A stretch of DNA of 32,586 nucleotides. Source: Candidatus Falkowiibacteriota bacterium (lineage in GTDB: Bacteria; Patescibacteriota; Patescibacteriia; Patescibacteriales; UBA12465). The notes beneath the pieces were generated by a model. That model saw only the letters and a list, made by a program, of their open reading frames with translations. It had not been told where the DNA came from and ran no database searches. Of the stretch, positions 13,290 through 31,780 are shown piece after piece. The position numbers and the translations under genes are program-made. The stretch's first letter is position 1. Every line of letters begins with the position of its first letter. The DNA lies in NCBI GenBank assembly GCA_009885285.1, contig VFKX01000014.1, forward strand, positions 1 to 32,586, in the 5' to 3' direction.

Positions 13290-13319
13290 TTGGGAAAATA
13301 TCGCAGTTTAGTATATAAT
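13290..13319 (+). promoter_or_regulatory. Putative promoter immediately abutting the SGNH hydrolase start
   Basis: TTGGGA, 18-nt spacer, TATAAT (13314-13319); ATG at 13326. Confidence 0.5.
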
Positions 13320-13325
13320 GGTGAT

Positions 13326-14105
13326 ATGAATATGCCTAAAATCAAAAAAAGCCTAAAAATTGTAATTTTCACCTGTTTGGGTATTATTGTTCTGGCTGGC
13401 CTCGGATACTATTTAAATCGGAGTTATTCCTATATCTATCAGGTTATTGGAGATGCGAAATTAAGCCCGGTTGAAGATCAGGGCACTTATCTTATTAATA
13501 ACCCTAGTCATATGGCTACTTCCACTCTTTTTTACGTGGCTCTCGGCGATAGCCTGACTGCCGGAGTCGGGACTGAGAGTTATACTGAAATCCTGCCTTA
13601 TCGGCTGGCGGAAAAACTGACCGGGGCAGATAGGCAAGTGGAATTAAGTAATTTTTCTGTGTCTGGCATTACTACGGTCGACCTGGTTAATTATTTGGTG
13701 CCGAAAGCTATAAAAGCTCAACCCGAGGCCATAACAATTCTAATCGGTGTAAACGATATTCATAACATGGTTTTAGCTGATGAGTTCGCTAAGAATTACG
13801 AGGAAATGCTCAGCCGCTTAACTAAAGAAACAAAAGCTCAGATTTATGTCATTAGTATTCCTTTTATTGGTTCCGATAAGTTAATGTCGCCGTTTTATCA
13901 GACCCTGTTTGGTACGCGCACTCAGCAATTCAATGCTATTATAAAGAAATTGGCCGATAAGTATCAAGTTAAATATATTAATTTATACGGACCAACTGTT
14001 AAGCTTTTTAAGAGTTCTGGTAGTCATTATTCAGCAGATTTATTTCATCCTTCCGCCGCCGGTTATCAGCTTTGGGCGGATATAATTTATGATCATCTCA
14101 ATTAG
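13326..14105 (+). CDS. SGNH/GDSL-family hydrolase with N-terminal TM anchor
   Basis: Block I VALGDSLTAGVGTE, block III IGVNDI, C-terminal DLFHPSAAGYQLWAD. ATG at 13326 chosen because TATAAT lies inside the longer ORF. Confidence 0.9.
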   Translation: MNMPKIKKSLKIVIFTCLGIIVLAGLGYYLNRSYSYIYQVIGDAKLSPVEDQGTYLINNPSHMATSTLFYVALGDSLTAGVGTESYTEILPYRLAEKLTGADRQVELSNFSVSGITTVDLVNYLVPKAIKAQPEAITILIGVNDIHNMVLADEFAKNYEEMLSRLTKETKAQIYVISIPFIGSDKLMSPFYQTLFGTRTQQFNAIIKKLADKYQVKYINLYGPTVKLFKSSGSHYSADLFHPSAAGYQLWADIIYDHLN

Positions 14106-15207
14106 TAATCCGGTCCTGGCGACCGAAATTTTTTCCGCCATTCTTTTTCTGATCCTGCTTTTTTCGATGCGGTCGCGGCGAATCAGCGAGTGGCTACCCA
14201 CTTCACTAACTACTGAACTCAAAGGGGCGGCAATTCTTATGATTGTGATTTCCCATATCGGTTATTTTTTAGTAGATGACCACCGCTTCTTGTGGCCGCT
14301 ATCGATTATGGCCGGCGTCGGCGTCAATCTTTTTCTATTTTTGTCCGGCTTCGGTTTGACGGCTAGTAATTTACAGAAAGAATTAAGCGCTGGTAAATTT
14401 TACCAGCGTCGCCTCTTTAAATTATTAGTGCCTTTTTGGCTGGCGGTAGTAACTTTTTTGTTAACGGATTTTTTTATTTTAGGAAAAACTTATTCCTTGG
14501 CTTTTATTGGTCAGGCATTTGTCGGAATATTTAAGAGCGCTGACCTGTATCGCGATTTGAATTCACCGCTCTGGTACTTTACCTTTATTCTTATTTACTA
14601 TTTATTGTTCCCGATATTTTTTTCTAAAAAAAGATTGTGGCTGACTGCTCTCCTATTATTTATCGCCGGTGATGTTTTTGTCCGTATTAATCCGGCCTAT
14701 TTTAGTAATGTCATGCATCTGTACCGCGTTCATACTTTTGCCTTTCCTTTAGGCATCCTGGCTGCCTGGGCGGTTACAAAATTACCTAGTGCCAGTATTT
14801 TGGAAAAATTGTCTCAGGGCTGGCGAGCGGCGGGTTATTATTTACTAATCATGATTTCCTTAGCTGCTTTTGTGTATACTAATTTTAATTCCGGCATCGG
14901 CGAGAGCGCTACTAAAGAACAGTGGATGAGCTTGATGGCTGTCTTGGCGATTATTATTGTTTTTGTGATGAAGAAAAGGGAGTTCCGTTTATTCACCATT
15001 TTTGGGCTTTATTCTTATGAAATATATCTTTGGCATTGGCCGATTCTATATCGCTATGACGTTATTTATGGCCATATGCCGGCTTGGCTGGCGACGATTG
15101 TTTATTTAGTTTTATTTATCGGTATTGCCTGGTTGGTACAGAAAGTATCCAGCGGTATCTTTAATCTGGCTGGCCGGCTGATGAAGAAAGAGCCTATTAA
15201 ATGTTAA
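14089..15207 (+). CDS. Acyltransferase 3 family integral membrane protein
   Basis: ELKGAAILMIVISHIGYF, GVGVNLFLFLSGFGLT, YQRRLFKLLVPFWLAV, about 10 TM segments, YSYEIYLWHWPILYR. Overlaps the hydrolase ORF by 17 bp. Confidence 0.88.
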   Translation: MIISISNPVLATEIFSAILFLILLFSMRSRRISEWLPTSLTTELKGAAILMIVISHIGYFLVDDHRFLWPLSIMAGVGVNLFLFLSGFGLTASNLQKELSAGKFYQRRLFKLLVPFWLAVVTFLLTDFFILGKTYSLAFIGQAFVGIFKSADLYRDLNSPLWYFTFILIYYLLFPIFFSKKRLWLTALLLFIAGDVFVRINPAYFSNVMHLYRVHTFAFPLGILAAWAVTKLPSASILEKLSQGWRAAGYYLLIMISLAAFVYTNFNSGIGESATKEQWMSLMAVLAIIIVFVMKKREFRLFTIFGLYSYEIYLWHWPILYRYDVIYGHMPAWLATIVYLVLFIGIAWLVQKVSSGIFNLAGRLMKKEPIKC

Positions 15208-24270: not shown

Positions 24271-25332
24271 ATGAACAAAAAAATTTTGATTGGCGCGGTA
24301 GCCATTTTAGTAGTGGCTGCAGCCGCAGGCGGATGGTTCTTTATGAAACCGAAACCGGCACCAGTAGCACAACAAGTACCACAAAGAGATATCTTAATCG
24401 GGTTCTCGATGGGTACTCTTCAGGAAGAGCGCTGGCAGCGCGATCGTGATGAATTTTTAAAGAAAGCGGATGAACTCGGTGTGGTCGTTGACTTGCAGGC
24501 CGCCAATAATAATGTCGAAACTCAGATTTCTCAGATTGAGGGCATGATTTTTAAAGGAGTGGATGTTTTAGTGATTGCTCCTCATGACGCCGATAAACTG
24601 ACGGCGGTGATTGATAAGGCGCATCAGGCTGGTATTAAAGTAATGTCTTATGACCGCTTAATCACTAAAGCCGATATTGATCTATATTTATCATTTGATA
24701 ATGTCAAAGTCGGCGAGTATCAGGCTACTTATATTTTACAGGCAGTCGCCGCTAAGATTGCAGCCGGCCAGAAAGTCAAGATTGCTTATATTGGCGGCGC
24801 TAAAACCGATAATAATGCCTTTTTATTTAAAAAAGGCGCTTTTAATATCTTGCAGCCGGCCATTGATAAGGGGCAGGTGGAGATCGTGGTGGATAAATTT
24901 AGCGACAATTGGGATCCGCAGAATGCTTATAAGAATTTGAAGGCATACTTGGACAAGAATGATGGCTTAATTGATGCAGTGGTGGCCGCTAATGATGGCA
25001 CAGCTTTTGGTTCAATTTCCGCTCTCAAGGAATATGGCTTGGATGGCAAGGTACCAGTGTCTGGCCAGGACGCAGAACTCTCGGCTATTAAAAGAATTAT
25101 CGCCGGCACTCAGAGCATGACTGTCTATAAACCGATTTCGAAGTTGGCGGCTGCCGGAGTCGAGCTGGCTATTAAATTAGCCGAGGGCGCACCGATTAAT
25201 TCAGTTAGTACGGTTAATAATGTTAAGATGGATGTGCCGTCTATTCTGCTCGAATCAATTGCAGTCACTAAAGATAATATCGATCAGACAGTGATGACTG
25301 ACGGATATTATAGCAGTAAGGATATCTACTAA
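24271..25332 (+). CDS. XylF/ChvE-like periplasmic sugar-binding protein with an N-terminal membrane anchor
   Basis: ILIGFSMGTLQEERWQRDRDEFLKKADELG..., VDVLVIAPHDADKL, IKVMSYDRLI, AANDGTAFGSISALKEYGLDGKVPVSGQDAELSAIKRI. TM near residues 5-24, no lipobox Cys. Confidence 0.9.
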   Translation: MNKKILIGAVAILVVAAAAGGWFFMKPKPAPVAQQVPQRDILIGFSMGTLQEERWQRDRDEFLKKADELGVVVDLQAANNNVETQISQIEGMIFKGVDVLVIAPHDADKLTAVIDKAHQAGIKVMSYDRLITKADIDLYLSFDNVKVGEYQATYILQAVAAKIAAGQKVKIAYIGGAKTDNNAFLFKKGAFNILQPAIDKGQVEIVVDKFSDNWDPQNAYKNLKAYLDKNDGLIDAVVAANDGTAFGSISALKEYGLDGKVPVSGQDAELSAIKRIIAGTQSMTVYKPISKLAAAGVELAIKLAEGAPINSVSTVNNVKMDVPSILLESIAVTKDNIDQTVMTDGYYSSKDIY

Positions 25333-25342
25333 AAAAATCTCG

Positions 25343-27355
25343 ATGAAAACGATTAAAAGTAAAATAATTGTTGCTTTTTCAGCAGTGATTCTGACCATGA
25401 TTCTAGTGCTGTTGTTTGTCATGTATATTAACTTTAACCTGATTAATCAGTTTAACAGCGTTAACGAAAATATCGTTTTCGAGCAGGACCTAAAAGATAA
25501 CATAAATAATGTCGGTCAGGATTGGTATAACGGCTCTAAAAGCGGTGATTTCTCTAATTATTACGTCCGGGTGGCGAAGATTAAGAGCGTTCAATCTGTC
25601 CTGAACAATCGCTTTATTGGTTATGTGTCGAGCCAGGAAGTTAAAGTTGCGCATCGCAGTCTGAATAATTCTGTTACCTTAATTCTTCAAGATTTGGAAG
25701 AGGCTAGAAAAAATTTAAATAGAGAGGATCAAGCTCTGTCAGCGGCGGCGAACGCCTTAGAGATAAATATCAAACTGGGATTCGTCCAGCAGAACGTCAC
25801 AAATTTACTAGTTGCAGAAACAGGTAATATTGCCGAGATTACTCAGCATATCAAGCAACAGCATTTAAATGTTTTCACAATCGTGGGTTCGATAATTTTT
25901 ATAGTTTCCCTGGTTTTGGTAGTTTTATCACTCTGGTTTGCAAAAAAAATATCTGATCCGATCGTTAATCTGTCAAAAACTGCGAGAAAAATTAGCGACG
26001 GTGATTTGACGCTCAGTGTTAGTCAGAACTTGTTCAAGAAGAGGGACGAAATCGGTAGTTTATCGCGGTCTTTTGCTGCAATGATCGCTTCTTTGCGGGA
26101 AAAAATGGTGGCTCTGGAAAAATCCAGTCGGGACTTGGCTGGTAAAATGACTGAGCTGTCAAAAAATAATCAAGAATTGCAGAGCGCCCAGTCGGCCATC
26201 ACTAATGTGCTTGAGGATTCTCGATCCTTAGGCGAGAACTTAAAACAGGAGCGTGATCGGAGCGAAGCTATTATTTCTTCAATGGGCGAAGGCTTAGTAG
26301 TGGTTGATAAGGACAATAATATTATCATGGCCAATCCCGCCGCCGTTAGGCTTTTGGAAACGCCGGCTGAAAAGTTCATCGGTAAAAATATAATAGAGGC
26401 TATTCCTTTATTTATCGGCAACGACTTAATTGCGCTTGAGGACCATCCAATTATTATGGCGGTTAAGAGCAAAAAGACTATTATCTCGAATCTTGGCGAC
26501 GATTTATATTTATCAAAATCCAGCGGTCAGAAATTTTCTGTCTTTATGGTTTCTGCGCCCTTGTCTTTCGAAGAAGACAGCGGGGCTGTGGTCATGTTCC
26601 GTGATGCCAGTGAAGAAAAAGCTTTGGATGATGCGAAGATTGGCTTTATCTCCATCGCTTCTCACCAGCTGCGCACGCCGCTAACCTCCATTCGCTGGTT
26701 TTCCGAGATGTTGATGGATGGCGATGCCGGTGAGATTAATGGCGAACAAAAGGGCTTTGTTGAGCTGATATATAATGGCACGGAGCGCATGATAAATTTA
26801 GTTAACTTGCTTTTGCAGATTGCTCGCGTTGAAGCGGGGCGCCTGAAGATTATTCCGGTCATGATAGATTTTAAAAATACGACGAATGGCGTAGTGGCCA
26901 CCTTGAAAACAATTTTAGCAAACAAAGAACAGACGGTCGAAATTACGACTAATCCAACGCCATTACCGTCTATACCGATGGATCAAGAGGTTATCTGGCA
27001 AGTTATCCAGAACTTATTATCCAATGCTTCCCGTTATTCTCCGGTCAAGTCAGTTATCAATGTGGCCGTAATTAAGAAAGATGACCATATTGAGTACTCG
27101 GTGAAGGATAGCGGTATCGGCATTCCCGAGGAGTATCGGCCACGTATTTTTGAAAAGTTTTACCGTGCCGATAACGCCTTGAAGCTGGTGCCTGAGGGGT
27201 CAGGCCTCGGATTATCATTAGTAAAAATGCTGGTGGAAAGATGGGGCGGAAAAATTTGGTTTGAATCAGAAGAGGGAAAGGGAACCACTTTCTTCTTTAC
27301 TATTCCTTTTGCCGGCATGAAGCCGAAAGAAGGTGATGTGGGCCTGAAGGTTTAG
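25343..27355 (+). CDS. Sensor histidine kinase (periplasmic helical domain, HAMP, PAS, HisKA, HATPase)
   Basis: Two TMs flanking a helical sensor, HAMP ISDPIVNLSKTARKISDGDL, PAS AIISSMGEGLVVVDKDNNIIMANPAAVRLL, H-box SIASHQLRTPLTSIRW, DSGIGIPEEYRPRIFEKFYR, GSGLGLSLVK. Confidence 0.96.
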   Translation: MKTIKSKIIVAFSAVILTMILVLLFVMYINFNLINQFNSVNENIVFEQDLKDNINNVGQDWYNGSKSGDFSNYYVRVAKIKSVQSVLNNRFIGYVSSQEVKVAHRSLNNSVTLILQDLEEARKNLNREDQALSAAANALEINIKLGFVQQNVTNLLVAETGNIAEITQHIKQQHLNVFTIVGSIIFIVSLVLVVLSLWFAKKISDPIVNLSKTARKISDGDLTLSVSQNLFKKRDEIGSLSRSFAAMIASLREKMVALEKSSRDLAGKMTELSKNNQELQSAQSAITNVLEDSRSLGENLKQERDRSEAIISSMGEGLVVVDKDNNIIMANPAAVRLLETPAEKFIGKNIIEAIPLFIGNDLIALEDHPIIMAVKSKKTIISNLGDDLYLSKSSGQKFSVFMVSAPLSFEEDSGAVVMFRDASEEKALDDAKIGFISIASHQLRTPLTSIRWFSEMLMDGDAGEINGEQKGFVELIYNGTERMINLVNLLLQIARVEAGRLKIIPVMIDFKNTTNGVVATLKTILANKEQTVEITTNPTPLPSIPMDQEVIWQVIQNLLSNASRYSPVKSVINVAVIKKDDHIEYSVKDSGIGIPEEYRPRIFEKFYRADNALKLVPEGSGLGLSLVKMLVERWGGKIWFESEEGKGTTFFFTIPFAGMKPKEGDVGLKV

Positions 27356-27390
27356 GTATTTAATTTAATCACTTATAATAACTGGAATCT

Positions 27391-27786
27391 ATGTCAAACG
27401 AATTGAATGGCAATGAAAAAAAGACCATCTTAGTAGTTGAGGATGAAGAGTCGTTGCAGCTGGCCATTAAAACTAAGCTGAAGGCCTCGCCGTATAAGTA
27501 CGTGTCAGCCAGGACAGCCGAGGAGGCGATTGAGCTTTTGAATGGTGGATTAAAACCAGATTTAATCTGGCTAGACTTATTAATGCCTGGTATGGGCGGT
27601 CTGGCGTTTTTGGAAAAGATTCGAACAAATAAGGAATGGAGCGCTTTGCCTGTGGTTATCGTTTCGGTTTCAGCCGGAGCAGAGAAAATTCGTCATGCTT
27701 TTGAACTTAATGTTGTTGATTATATTGTGAAAAGCCAGTATAGACTCGAAGATATTATTAGTAAGATTAACGGCTTTATTTCCTAG
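27391..27786 (+). CDS. Single-domain (REC-only) response regulator
   Basis: ILVVEDEESLQ, LIWLDLLMPGMGG, VVIVSVSA, DYIVKSQ; no output domain. Confidence 0.94.
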   Translation: MSNELNGNEKKTILVVEDEESLQLAIKTKLKASPYKYVSARTAEEAIELLNGGLKPDLIWLDLLMPGMGGLAFLEKIRTNKEWSALPVVIVSVSAGAEKIRHAFELNVVDYIVKSQYRLEDIISKINGFIS

Positions 27787-27793
27787 AGATTTG

Positions 27794-27822
27794 TATTGAC
27801 ATTTATTTAAAAATAGGTTAAG
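27794..27822 (+). promoter_or_regulatory. Possible promoter for the second response regulator
   Basis: TTGACA, 17-nt spacer, TAAGCT (weak -10), followed by a GC-rich hairpin gcgtctcc...ggaggcgc. Coordinates approximate. Confidence 0.35.
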
Positions 27823-27867
27823 CTCCAAGCGTCTCCGTTTCTGGAGGCGCAGGGGTAAGCATATGTT

Positions 27868-28263
27868 ATGGCCCTTACAAAAGCTTTAAAAAAAGAAAAA
27901 AATAAAGACATTCTTATTATTGAGGATGACATTTATCTAGTCGAAGCCTATCAGCGAAAATTTCAGAAGGAAGGGCTGGAGGTTAATGTTATTTCCGATG
28001 GCCGGACAGCTTTAGCTGTTCTTGATCAGGCACCACCCAGTTTAGTATTACTAGACCTGATGTTGCCTGGCGTCAGTGGGCTCAGTATCCTGGAGGCAAT
28101 CAAGAAGAATGACCGCTGGAAAAATGTGCCGGTCATTATTCTTAGTAACTTGGGTCAGCCTCAGGATGTTGATAAGGCCTTGGCAGCCGGCGCGGCTGAC
28201 TTCATGATTAAGGCTAACGTCAAGCTCGGCGAAATCATTGAGAGGGTGAGAAAATTCCTTTAA
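27868..28263 (+). CDS. Single-domain (REC-only) response regulator
   Basis: ILIIEDDIYLVEAYQRKF, LVLLDLMLPGVSG, VIILSNLG, DFMIKANVK. Confidence 0.95.
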   Translation: MALTKALKKEKNKDILIIEDDIYLVEAYQRKFQKEGLEVNVISDGRTALAVLDQAPPSLVLLDLMLPGVSGLSILEAIKKNDRWKNVPVIILSNLGQPQDVDKALAAGAADFMIKANVKLGEIIERVRKFL

Positions 28264-28286
28264 GCCCCTATAAAATCAATTCAATT

Positions 28287-28310
28287 AACGTGCCGAGTAG
28301 GCACGTTTTG
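28287..28310 (+). terminator. Possible terminator after the second response regulator
   Basis: aacgtgcc-gagta-ggcacgtt followed by a short T-run. Confidence 0.5.
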
Positions 28311-28359
28311 ATATATTGGAATGTTCATTAATAACTAAATAAAAGAAAGGAAATAGACA

Positions 28360-29703
28360 ATGGAAAAAAGTAAAACTGGATTAGTTAAAAAAAGGAAAGC
28401 GGAGGCCGCGGGCTTCTGGAATTTCTACGCTAGAATTTATGATCTTCTTAATACTTTCAGTCCCTATATTAAGATGCAGAAGGCGGTTATCAAGAGTTTG
28501 CAGCTGATAAACAATCTGACTATTATTGATGCCAGTTGTGGTACCGGCAATACTTTAAAGCGTCTACTGGTTAGTCGAAAAGAATATTTCGGGCTGAAGC
28601 TTGTTGGCTTGGATTTCTCTCGAGCCATGTTACAGCGGGCCAAAAAGAAACTGGCCGGAATTGCTCAACTTAGACTATGGTTAGGGAATTTCGATAATTT
28701 ACCTGAACCGAATACGTGTCCGACTGAAGGTGAGAAGCTGACTCAGGACGAGGCGCTGGGATTTGGAAAAAAATATGATCGCATTATTTCAGTTAACAGC
28801 TTGTATATCAGTCCGAACCCTCAGAAAACACTGAGGCATTGGTATGAATCCCTGGAGGATGGTGGCTTGGCTGTTATTGCTAACCCCTTCGTCCCTAAGC
28901 TGGGTCCAATTTGGCGGGAATTCTTTATGAGTCTGTGGCGTGATAAGAATGTTAAGGATTTAATGGTCTTCATTCTTCTCTCTCCGGCCTGGTTGACACT
29001 GACTGCTATCAATGTTTGGATTGCTTATCAAGGCAGGAAAAATGTTTATCATTTTCTTGAGCCGGAAGCTTTAGAAGCGCTGGTAATAGCGGCTGGATTT
29101 AAAGTTTTGAGCAGAGAGTTGATATATGGCGGCGGTTCAGTTTTGCTCTGCTTGCAGAAAGAAACCGGGTCCGCAATTCGTCGCGCTCAGACGCCGTCAG
29201 AAATTGAAGAAGTATACAGATTAAGGTATACTGTATACTGTGAAGAGATGAAGAGCGTAGACTCAGCATTATTTTCTAATCGACAGGAAATTGATTGCTT
29301 TGATTTATATGCAATTCATTTTATTGTCCGTGATGGTGATGAAATTGTTGGCTCCGCCAGGGTTATTACAGACTCAGGTATGGGATTTCTTTTGGAAGAA
29401 TTTTTTTGCCTTCCAGTTGAAATAAGCAATCAAGCAGTTAGAAAAAAAACATTGGAAATTTCGCGCGTTGCATTAATACCAGAGTACAGAGGGGGAGGGT
29501 ATTTCATAGAATTAATGTCGGAAGTTGTATGTTATGGTAATAGTCATGGGTACTTCTCTTATATCGGTGTATCAACTGCTAGGATATGGAATACATTTAT
29601 TAAAAACAAATGGCGGATTGCTATTTGGGATTCCTATATAGAGTATCATAATACAATTTCATGCCCGGCGATTATAAGCCGGCCGATTAAATCACATGAG
29701 TAA
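28360..29703 (+). CDS. Fusion: SAM-dependent methyltransferase domain + LuxI/FeeM (exosortase-associated acyltransferase)-like GNAT domain
   Basis: N-terminal FYARIYDLLNTFSPYIKMQ, motif I IIDASCGTGNTLKRL, LVGLDFSRAMLQRAKKKL. C-terminal EEVYRLRYTVYCEEM...EIDCFDLYAIHFIVRDGDEIVGSARVI...LEISRVALIPEYRGGG. Confidence 0.82.
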   Translation: MEKSKTGLVKKRKAEAAGFWNFYARIYDLLNTFSPYIKMQKAVIKSLQLINNLTIIDASCGTGNTLKRLLVSRKEYFGLKLVGLDFSRAMLQRAKKKLAGIAQLRLWLGNFDNLPEPNTCPTEGEKLTQDEALGFGKKYDRIISVNSLYISPNPQKTLRHWYESLEDGGLAVIANPFVPKLGPIWREFFMSLWRDKNVKDLMVFILLSPAWLTLTAINVWIAYQGRKNVYHFLEPEALEALVIAAGFKVLSRELIYGGGSVLLCLQKETGSAIRRAQTPSEIEEVYRLRYTVYCEEMKSVDSALFSNRQEIDCFDLYAIHFIVRDGDEIVGSARVITDSGMGFLLEEFFCLPVEISNQAVRKKTLEISRVALIPEYRGGGYFIELMSEVVCYGNSHGYFSYIGVSTARIWNTFIKNKWRIAIWDSYIEYHNTISCPAIISRPIKSHE

Positions 29704-31780
29704 CTTAGTAATTTTCATTTTAATTCTGCAGATTCTGGTTTTCATTGTGAACTCATTTTTAGGCATTCTGGTGTTTCAATCAGAATCTAAATCTCGGTTC
29801 AATATTCTTTTCTGTGTCTTTACGCTGAGTTTAGCACTCTGGAACTTAGCATTATTTTTTACAATCGCAGCAATAGGCGGGCCCGTTATGCAACTTTGGT
29901 GCAGTCGGCTCGCCTTTTCTTTTGGTGTTATTCTCTTTAACAGTTTTTTATACTTTGCTTCTATTTACCCGAATGTCACTCGGGTTAGACTTTGGCTCGA
30001 TATTGTTATTGGACTTGGAACCGCGGCTATTTTCTACCTAACCCTGACTCCGTCTCTTATTAAGGGCAACATTGTCATTATTAACGGTGCTATTACTGGT
30101 GAGGTTGGCGCCTTGATGCCGATTTTTAGTCTATATCTCCCTTTGTTTATCATTATTAGTTTAGTGACTTTAATATGGAAGCTTTTTAAGTATAGAGGTG
30201 TAGTTAGGGTGAGAATCTGGTATACGCTGATTGGTTTTGTTTTTTTTGCCGTGCCGATGATTATTACCAATCTCATCTTGCCAATCTTCTTTGGTAACTT
30301 CAGTTTGAATAACTTAGGCCCGATCTTCTCCTTGCCAATGGTCGCCACCATCGCTTATGTTATGGTGCGTCACCGTTTCATGGGTATTCGCCAGGCTGTG
30401 GCTCGCTTAGTCACGTATTTTTTTGTCATTACCTTCTTAGGTTTTTTCTATGCAGCCGGCGTCTGGGTTATGACCGCCTTGATTGTTAAAGGGTCTGGCG
30501 TTATGGATAACCTCTGGGTCTCCATCCTATTTGCGGTCGTCGCCTCTTTCTCGTTTCAGCCGCTTCGCTCCTCGTTCGAGAAGACGACTAATCGGATGTT
30601 CTATCAGCATCATTATGACGGCAATCGGCTCTTGTACAATTTGGCTTTGATTATGTCTTCCAGTCTCCGCTTAAAAGATTTGACCAGCGGCTTAATCAAT
30701 CAGATTATGTCAGAAATGCATATCGCACGCGGCGCTTTCATTTTAGTCGGCGATAAGAGGATTTCGCATTTGAGCTATGGCGGATACGAGCAGGAGCCGG
30801 TATTTACCGAAAAGGAATTAAGCAGTCTGGCGAGTCAATCTAAAATAGTTATCTTTGATGAGTTACCGGAGAATTCTTTAAAGAAAGTGATGCGCGATTT
30901 ACGCATCAAAGCCTTGCTTCCTCTACGGACCAAGAAGGCTCATAATAATATCCTAATTTTGGGAGAAAAACTTTCCGGCGAGCCGTACAGCGTCCAGGAT
31001 GTAAGTCTCTTGGAAGTATTCGCCCCTTCAGCTGCGGTAGCTATTAATAACACAGTTAGCATTGAGCAGATTATCCGCTTAGATGATTTGAAGTCAGAAT
31101 TCATTACTGTCGTTTCGCACCAGCTGCGCACGCCACTATCTGTTGCCCGCTGGAATTTCGAATTACTGCTCGACGGTTCATTCGGTGAGATTAATAAGGA
31201 AGTGAAGAACTTCGCTACAACGACCTATCAGGCCGTTATGGATCTTAATAAGGGGTTGAACAACTTGATGCTGTCTTTGGAGATTGAAGAAAACAAGCTG
31301 ATTATCAAGTTTGATGCTGTAGACTTTAGCCGGGATATTATCGATGAGGTTCTTAAATCATGCCAAAAAGAATTGGCCTTTAAAGGCATTACTGTCGATA
31401 AAAGCTTTGGCTTCAAAAAGGAAGTTAAGATCGATAGTCGTAAAATCCTGGAGGCCGTTAAAGCTCTTTTGAGTAATGCGATTGAGTATTCGCCGGCCGG
31501 ATCAAGAATTAAGATAACCACCTCTTTACTGAGAAAGGATAAGGGTAACGAATTACTGTTTACTATCTGTGATCAGGGCAGCGGCATTCCGGAAGAGAAT
31601 AAGAAATTTATTTTCCAGAAATTTTTCCGCGGTGAGATGGCGAAAAAAATTTCGCCGAATGGCTTCGGCCTCAGTCTTTTTATTGCTCGGTCGTTTGTCG
31701 AGTCTCATGGAGGTGTAATCTGGCTGGAGAATCAGAAGACCCCGGGCGCCGCTTTTAGTTTTACTTTACCGTTAAAATAA
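29696..31780 (+). CDS. 7TM-type sensor histidine kinase (N-terminal 7TM, GAF, HisKA, HATPase)
   Basis: Multiple N-terminal TM helices, GAF-like region about residues 310-450, H-box TVVSHQLRTPLSVARW, DQGSGIPEENKKFIFQKFFR, GFGLSLFIARSFVESHGG. Starts 8 bp inside the upstream CDS. Confidence 0.94.
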   Translation: MSNLVIFILILQILVFIVNSFLGILVFQSESKSRFNILFCVFTLSLALWNLALFFTIAAIGGPVMQLWCSRLAFSFGVILFNSFLYFASIYPNVTRVRLWLDIVIGLGTAAIFYLTLTPSLIKGNIVIINGAITGEVGALMPIFSLYLPLFIIISLVTLIWKLFKYRGVVRVRIWYTLIGFVFFAVPMIITNLILPIFFGNFSLNNLGPIFSLPMVATIAYVMVRHRFMGIRQAVARLVTYFFVITFLGFFYAAGVWVMTALIVKGSGVMDNLWVSILFAVVASFSFQPLRSSFEKTTNRMFYQHHYDGNRLLYNLALIMSSSLRLKDLTSGLINQIMSEMHIARGAFILVGDKRISHLSYGGYEQEPVFTEKELSSLASQSKIVIFDELPENSLKKVMRDLRIKALLPLRTKKAHNNILILGEKLSGEPYSVQDVSLLEVFAPSAAVAINNTVSIEQIIRLDDLKSEFITVVSHQLRTPLSVARWNFELLLDGSFGEINKEVKNFATTTYQAVMDLNKGLNNLMLSLEIEENKLIIKFDAVDFSRDIIDEVLKSCQKELAFKGITVDKSFGFKKEVKIDSRKILEAVKALLSNAIEYSPAGSRIKITTSLLRKDKGNELLFTICDQGSGIPEENKKFIFQKFFRGEMAKKISPNGFGLSLFIARSFVESHGGVIWLENQKTPGAAFSFTLPLK

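Follow-up and report, generated by a model that had tools for sequence, protein, structure and literature searches.

The window analysed here is a 32,586-nucleotide contig (C77; GenBank VFKX01000014.1) from the 1.43-Mb, 118-contig genome of a Candidatus Falkowiibacteriota bacterium, a member of the Patescibacteria. It carries two overlapping forward-strand genes that we lean modestly towards reading, on sequence evidence, as a modular and self-contained synthase/receptor system for chemical signalling, whose product would more likely be a capped N-acyl amino acid than an N-acyl-homoserine lactone (AHL). The first gene (28360..29703) encodes a 447-residue fusion of a methyltransferase (MT) to a GNAT N-acyltransferase (MT::GNAT), recognized with Pfam and NCBIfam profiles and taken as the candidate signal synthase. 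The second (29696..31780) encodes a 694-residue 7TM-GAF-HisKA-HATPase histidine kinase (HK) with a seven-transmembrane (7TM) sensor, which its Pfam matches and conserved pairing mark as the candidate receptor. The coordinates and lengths of both open reading frames (ORFs), and the 8-bp overlap between the 3' end of the first and the start of the second, are exactly those of a preliminary description made from the DNA letters alone, which had proposed a co-translated enzyme and sensor with the MT domain tailoring the acylated product.

The acyltransferase gene is paired with a 7TM gene across the phylum

Approximately 700 genomes of ~1 Mb from the same phylum were surveyed for sites selected by the GNAT profile PF13444 only, with the kinase ignored. 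Genomes with a match numbered 8 of 380 phylum-wide and, at class level, 21 of 381, giving together 31 sites in 27 genomes, and the neighbours of each site were classified with locally built profiles. At 29 of the 31 sites a same-strand gene at most three positions downstream encodes a 7TM protein. The remaining two are a site on a 5.7-kb contig (L070) and one close to the end of its contig, with a recognizable 7TM fragment (L068). Because matches to the HisKA_7TM profile PF16927 are few (63, spread over 28 of the surveyed genomes), adjacency by chance is estimated at under about 1% per site, assuming about 1,000 genes per genome. The observation is not a chance resemblance: the GNAT family profile matches AHL synthases of known structure (see below), and the gene pair, whose absence from relatives the preliminary description had named as grounds for giving up its proposal, recurs across the phylum. 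Two further sites outside the survey fit the same pattern, one encoding MT-GNAT-7TM-GAF-kinase (L015) and the other ThiF-GNAT-7TM kinase (L111).

Inspection of these neighbourhoods reveals that the enzymatic partner of the GNAT is exchangeable. An MT or a ThiF/E1-like enzyme is present at 25 of the 31 sites (14 with MT, 12 with ThiF, one with both), and the partners may be fused: MT::GNAT in the window order recurs at L059, where a 7TM kinase and an OmpR-type regulator accompany it, the reversed GNAT::MT occurs at L062, where a PlsC acyltransferase gene adjoins it, and GNAT::ThiF at L025. One genome carries four GNAT / ThiF or MT / 7TM units in tandem (L052, G403:C2:52000-71999). The first and last GNAT copies of this array are identical in the aligned domain, which may reflect recent duplication or an assembly effect.

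The sensor side varies as well. Stand-alone 7TM proteins lacking a kinase, often of ~220 residues and in runs, adjoin modules at L056, L057, L060 and L064, and L052 encodes 7TM-GAF proteins that likewise have no kinase. Further 7TM ORFs lie side by side in the genome of the window itself (C101; L124, G000:C101:5014-7436). Such architectural variation suits signalling, and so do the acyl- or carboxylate-activating enzymes found near modules, namely GH3 in a GH3-GNAT-7TM kinase arrangement at L067, which belongs to the family of the window, an added AMP-binding acyl ligase (L069), and a PaaK-like adenylating family that adjoins the 7TM kinase at three loci lacking the GNAT (L013, L014 and L129). 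A search of L013 and L014 for hidden GNATs found none, the PaaK-like enzyme standing there instead; a 242-residue protein at L012 can at most be called a highly divergent GNAT, and at L131 a 7TM kinase lies beside an MT without a GNAT. Two PaaK-like members that were scanned have no Pfam match. The PaaK-like family is also present at L052:10833-12353 and, in several genomes, beside an MT and a 7TM protein, and it apparently replaces the GNAT in some genomes. Other 7TM kinases are preceded by a PlsC-type acyltransferase and a HAD phosphatase (L130:4633-9387), with HAD and PlsC-like ORFs also at L126:8741-10825; with these genes, receptors of this type have another enzyme set, one of lipid-like character.

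Outside the phylum the picture is sparser. By a 7TM profile trained on this phylum, no 7TM neighbour appeared beside ~46 GNAT relatives that a pattern scan found in other phyla, and a scan of viral contigs with the GNAT alignment returned no relatives. Plasmids gave distant GNAT matches only, among them two Sulfitobacter plasmids carrying MT-GNAT, of which the one examined reads MT-GNAT-HK-HK. A metagenome-assembled genome (MAG) of Lentisphaerae encodes GNAT-MT-HK/response regulator. An Actinomycetota MAG (L073:6546-12014) encodes a GAF-phosphatase-like protein, a GNAT, an MT and a multi-TM GGDEF-HD protein, that is to say, the same GNAT/MT enzyme pair with a cyclic-di-GMP type output and no kinase.

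Domain identities of the enzyme and the sensor

The N-terminal half of the synthase (28360..29150) is a class I S-adenosylmethionine (SAM) methyltransferase of UbiE/BioC-like type, where the preliminary description had noted SAM motif I, with matches above the cut-offs of PF13489 (2.2e-12; 47.4 bits against 27) and PF08242 (7.6e-11). Its motif I, IIDASCGTGN, contains the expected GxG, and G61, G63, G169 and N218 are invariant across 15 aligned relatives.

The C-terminal domain (29170..29700) firmly belongs to the GNAT superfamily that includes LuxI, FeeM and OlsB. PF13444 is matched above its cut-off, at 6e-14 by the domain and at 3.8e-13 by the whole protein, and the FeeM profile PF21926 at 9e-8 (32.4 bits) and 5.4e-7 (30.0 bits), respectively, against a cut-off of 27 bits; all 26 GNAT family members match PF21926. 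The best NCBIfam match is the exosortase-associated acyltransferase model TIGR03694 (8e-17), likewise matched by 26 of 26 members, at a score of 61.4 bits that lies below the cut-off of 111.95. The OlsB equivalog models match at 1e-8 and fall below their cut-offs by a wide margin (NF052554, 35.2 against 350 bits; NF052555, 33.8 against 320 bits). By these curated profiles the window enzyme is nearer to FeeM, exosortase-linked and OlsB N-acyltransferases than to true LuxI, and for this reason an N-acyl amino acid is ranked as a likelier product than a homoserine lactone. The preliminary description had named LuxI and FeeM together; the FeeM side of that comparison holds, the LuxI profile is not significantly matched, and the proposed co-translated synthase/receptor with a tailoring MT remains the best-supported reading with its enzyme apparently shifted away from LuxI.

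Residues R19, D45, R64 and R99 of the GNAT domain are invariant, and D42 and E96 nearly so, in an alignment of 26 relatives, and all six line up with the AHL synthase BjaI, which bears out the motif order (R, E-x-D-x-x-D, R, E-x-S-R) of the preliminary description. We take these to be the equivalents of the LuxI catalytic and structural residues R24, D45, D48, R68, E97 and R100 in EsaI numbering. The position of LuxI W34 is occupied by serine in the window (29254-29256, GNAT domain residue 29) and in L059. The MT-linked relatives nearest to the window share this serine and most ThiF-linked ones have an aromatic residue, which makes the position a possible specificity marker.

When the GNAT family profile was compared with structures in the PDB, BjaI was matched at 2.8e-18, followed by RpaI, TofI, LasI and EsaI, with FeeM at only 0.035. 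An AlphaFold2 (AF2) model of the domain (mean predicted local distance difference test score, pLDDT, 95) matched BjaI best in Foldseek (1.9e-9), with LasI (3.0e-9) and FeeM (2.4e-8) close behind, and also TofI, MesI and the small GNATs SACOL1063 and YjcF. The structural scores of these last two nearly equal those of the AHL synthases, and the fold alone is not decisive. Identity as a generic acetyltransferase, the other outcome that the preliminary description had set against itself, is rejected on the whole-length profile match to AHL synthases.

The same matches bear on whether the locus encodes true AHL quorum sensing with a LuxN-like kinase as receptor. The family profile matches BjaI, RpaI, LasI, TofI and EsaI, 18 of the 26 members match the LuxI profile PF00765 at E<=0.01, the LuxI-type catalytic residues are conserved, and AHL systems have been predicted in this radiation in the published text (PMC7567580). 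The window protein itself, however, falls short of PF00765 (E 0.035 for the whole protein; 16.5 against 24 bits for the domain) and of the curated AHL-synthase cut-offs, and carries serine where LuxI has its W34 aromatic. Moreover, an AHL offers no free carboxylate, making an adjoining MT or ThiF hard to explain. We regard AHL signalling at this locus as improbable.

Turning to the sensor protein, the kinase core (31091..31777) matches HisKA (PF00512, 5e-8) and HATPase_c (PF02518, 3e-22) and contains the motifs VSHQLRTP, NAIEYS and GSGIPE; an H-box together with HATPase_c identifies a histidine kinase. The multi-TM sensor and GAF domain of the preliminary description are likewise recovered, at lower scores. 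The 7TM domain (29711..30448) matches PF16927 at 4.4e-5, with 23.9 bits (27.9 in the genome search) against a cut-off of 28.6, and relatives reach 4.5e-22, most of them exceeding the cut-off at the same position. The GAF-like domain (30674..31045) is a weak match (GAF_2, E 0.035) that is stronger in 7TM-GAF relatives (PF01590, 1.2e-9 in L052). The AF2 model of the 7TM domain (pLDDT 91) consists mainly of helices and places a beta hairpin between the fourth and the fifth. Its best 50 Foldseek matches are all G-protein-coupled receptors at E 0.003 and up; with a TM score of about 0.5-0.6 and no sequence match, homology to these receptors is unsupported.

Synthase and sensor co-vary

Co-variation was analysed for 26 GNAT/receptor pairs by rank correlation of distances with Mantel tests. 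GNAT and 7TM distances correlate at r 0.46 (p 0.0005), GNAT and kinase core at 0.35, and the 7TM domain and kinase core of the same protein at 0.06; the partial correlation of GNAT with 7TM given the kinase is 0.46 (p 0.0005). The 7TM distances set MT-linked systems apart from ThiF-linked ones (p 0.001); the kinase (0.41) and GNAT (0.90) distances do not. In one clear case, the GNAT and 7TM domains of the window are both closest to those of L059, itself an MT::GNAT system, and its kinase core is closest to that of L067. Synthase and sensor appear to stay coupled while the output part is swapped.

This coupling also bears on the possibility that the kinase merely regulates the enzyme or a nearby surface or pilus operon and senses something unrelated, the adjacency being one of operon regulation. 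Adjacent two-component systems commonly do act locally, and type IV pilus genes lie near several of the loci. Local regulation of this kind would leave unexplained why the GNAT co-varies with the 7TM domain beyond the kinase, and why the same enzymes also occur beside 7TM-only proteins and non-kinase outputs, and we give it little credence.

Several points weigh against the signalling reading. The GNAT family assignment does not separate a signal from a membrane lipid. In a tree, the GNATs of the window and of L059 lie next to an OlsB-like clade that has a long branch, with a joint split of 99/93 and a provisional clade label taken from the members that score highest against PF13444. A sequence search found no solved structure related to the 7TM family, and we know of no established ligand for PF16927. 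The Mantel tests control incompletely for shared ancestry and draw on few pairs. Scored on trees, the MT/ThiF contrast is less marked, with 4 changes for the 7TM domain (8 of 500 shuffles) and 5 for the kinase and the GNAT (37-39 of 500).

The main alternative, an aminolipid pathway, accounts for the enzymes nearly as well as signalling does. Here an OlsB-like GNAT would make a lyso-aminolipid, an OlsG-like MT would act with it, and the 7TM kinase would monitor the membrane or its lipid supply instead of a signal set free by the cell. The OlsB-model matches and the branching with the OlsB-like clade point this way, as do the PlsC gene beside L062 and the GH3 gene beside L067, and a planctomycete operon of the OlsG N-methyltransferase and the GH3 enzyme OlsH provides a precedent (PMC12493201). 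Against it stand the distance from the OlsB equivalog cut-offs (35 against 350 bits) and an OlsA/PlsC partner seen at a minority of sites only. A bulk lipid enzyme would further leave unexplained the near-universal 7TM receptor, the four tandem units and the alternation of MT with ThiF. On balance, we consider the aminolipid pathway rather unlikely.

Proposed mechanism, known systems and genomic surroundings

For the signalling system, domain identity, fold, residue conservation, pairing and co-variation come from the computation, and the substrate, the methylated atom, product release, receptor binding and output outlined here are what we infer. The GNAT, judging from its family, would N-acylate an amino acid or related amine with a fatty acyl group from a coenzyme A or acyl carrier protein donor. 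The fused MT would cap the product, most simply as the methyl ester of its carboxylate, with N-methylation as the alternative, and in sister systems ThiF would cap the carboxylate by adenylation-dependent chemistry. MT and ThiF are unrelated and alternate at one step, which suggests that they act on the same target group, and a free carboxylate could be modified by both. The lipophilic product would then partition into the membrane, bind the 7TM domain and alter kinase activity, such that the co-translated kinase would phosphorylate a receiver protein that carries the output.

Patescibacteria combine very small genomes with a life spent mostly in attachment to other cells, and to our knowledge almost nothing is known of how they communicate. 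As a tentative generalization, plausible though further-reaching than the reading of the window, they may use modular synthase/receptor pairs in which an N-acyltransferase (or GH3, PaaK-like or PlsC enzyme) and an interchangeable MT or ThiF cap yield lineage-specific lipid signals for co-evolving 7TM receptors with swappable outputs. If so, some genomes would run several signal channels in parallel. Signalling through the pair would also point to a ligand class for the HisKA_7TM sensors, which are orphans, and would widen the chemistry of bacterial signals by capped N-acyl amino acids. The conserved enzyme/receptor module is small enough for transfer to Escherichia coli, which makes the question of communication testable.

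In the gene pairs LuxM/LuxN and CqsA/CqsS of Vibrio, a small-molecule synthase gene likewise lies beside that of a multi-TM sensor kinase. The likeness is one of layout: the Vibrio synthase folds are unrelated, and no methyltransferase is involved.

Closer in lineage, 18 LuxI homologues beside sensory kinases in Candidate Phyla Radiation (CPR) genomes have been called candidate complete systems (Bernard et al. 2020, PMC7567580). These pairs, reported for CPR and DPANN genomes, share with the window both the lineage and a LuxI-like acyltransferase beside a membrane kinase, and the window, where a CPR genome places a LuxI-like gene next to one for a sensory kinase, is of the kind they define. 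The preliminary description had known of no described system of this architecture; as regards the general idea, that paper supersedes it. The main text of Bernard et al. makes no mention of methyltransferase or ThiF, and the passages of it available to us contain no fusions, arrays or co-variation; what is new relative to that text is the exchange of tailoring enzymes, the fusions and arrays, and the co-variation of sensor with enzyme. A literature search, with thin coverage of subscription journals, found no paper describing MT or ThiF modules.

The acyltransferases of Craig et al. 2011, as cited in PMC4897644 and PMC7293339, belong by profile to the same GNAT subfamily and have a single-domain core. 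As these citing papers present them, they sit with PEP-CTERM/exosortase or natural-product genes, whereas the window enzyme sits with a 7TM kinase, carries a fused MT and scores below the TIGR03694 cut-off. The OlsB/OlsG/OlsH enzymes (PMC12493201, PMC11631085) are comparable in that they N-acylate an amino acid, through either a PF13444 enzyme or GH3, and also N-methylate. The window system differs in having no consistent OlsA partner, in its pairing with a 7TM kinase and in OlsB scores far under the cut-off. Among LuxI homologues tied to a kinase, the nearest that has been tested is FilI of Methanosaeta harundinacea, which, as here, is linked to a histidine kinase and response regulators (PMC3991700). 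In FilI a single archaeal protein holds both the kinase and the synthase activity, unlike the two-gene pair of the window, and that study detected no direct action of its carboxyl-AHLs on phosphorylation (PMC3991700).

The genes upstream of the pair (24271-28263) code for a substrate-binding protein and a PAS kinase, followed by two stand-alone receiver proteins on the forward strand. One receiver lies directly upstream of the pair (27868..28263; PF00072, 2.7e-23) and the second before it (27391..27786; PF00072, 1.3e-19). Neighbour analysis shows that receiver genes adjoin the module in many relatives, and the two receivers are possible partners of the 7TM kinase. A forward-strand hairpin (28287..28307; 8-bp stem, 5-nt loop, then a short T run) stands between the nearer receiver gene and the MT-GNAT gene. 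The region 28262-28325 folds at -16.3 kcal/mol (z -2.98 against shuffles), and the hairpin, with its short T tail, is absent from the terminator scan list. Its fold is suggestive of a possible terminator dividing the pair from the upstream genes. Because the hairpin may split these off, the pair may form its own transcription unit, and a single long operon with the upstream kinase genes is not assumed.

Among the upstream genes, one for a sugar-binding-type Peripla_BP_4 protein (2.7e-58) ends 10 bp ahead of one for a HAMP-PAS histidine kinase (window 24271-27355), an order just upstream of the pair that recalls LuxP/LuxQ. Type IV pilus genes (PilM, T2SSE, T2SSF, pilin-like) lie near five modules elsewhere (L010:12428-14617, L014:13935-16157, L026:11360-16499, L025:190-3199 and L023:965-2968). 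In a separate part of the window (13290-15207), a GDSL lipase gene overlaps a gene for an Acyl_transf_3 membrane acyltransferase, possibly a pair for surface-glycan acylation.

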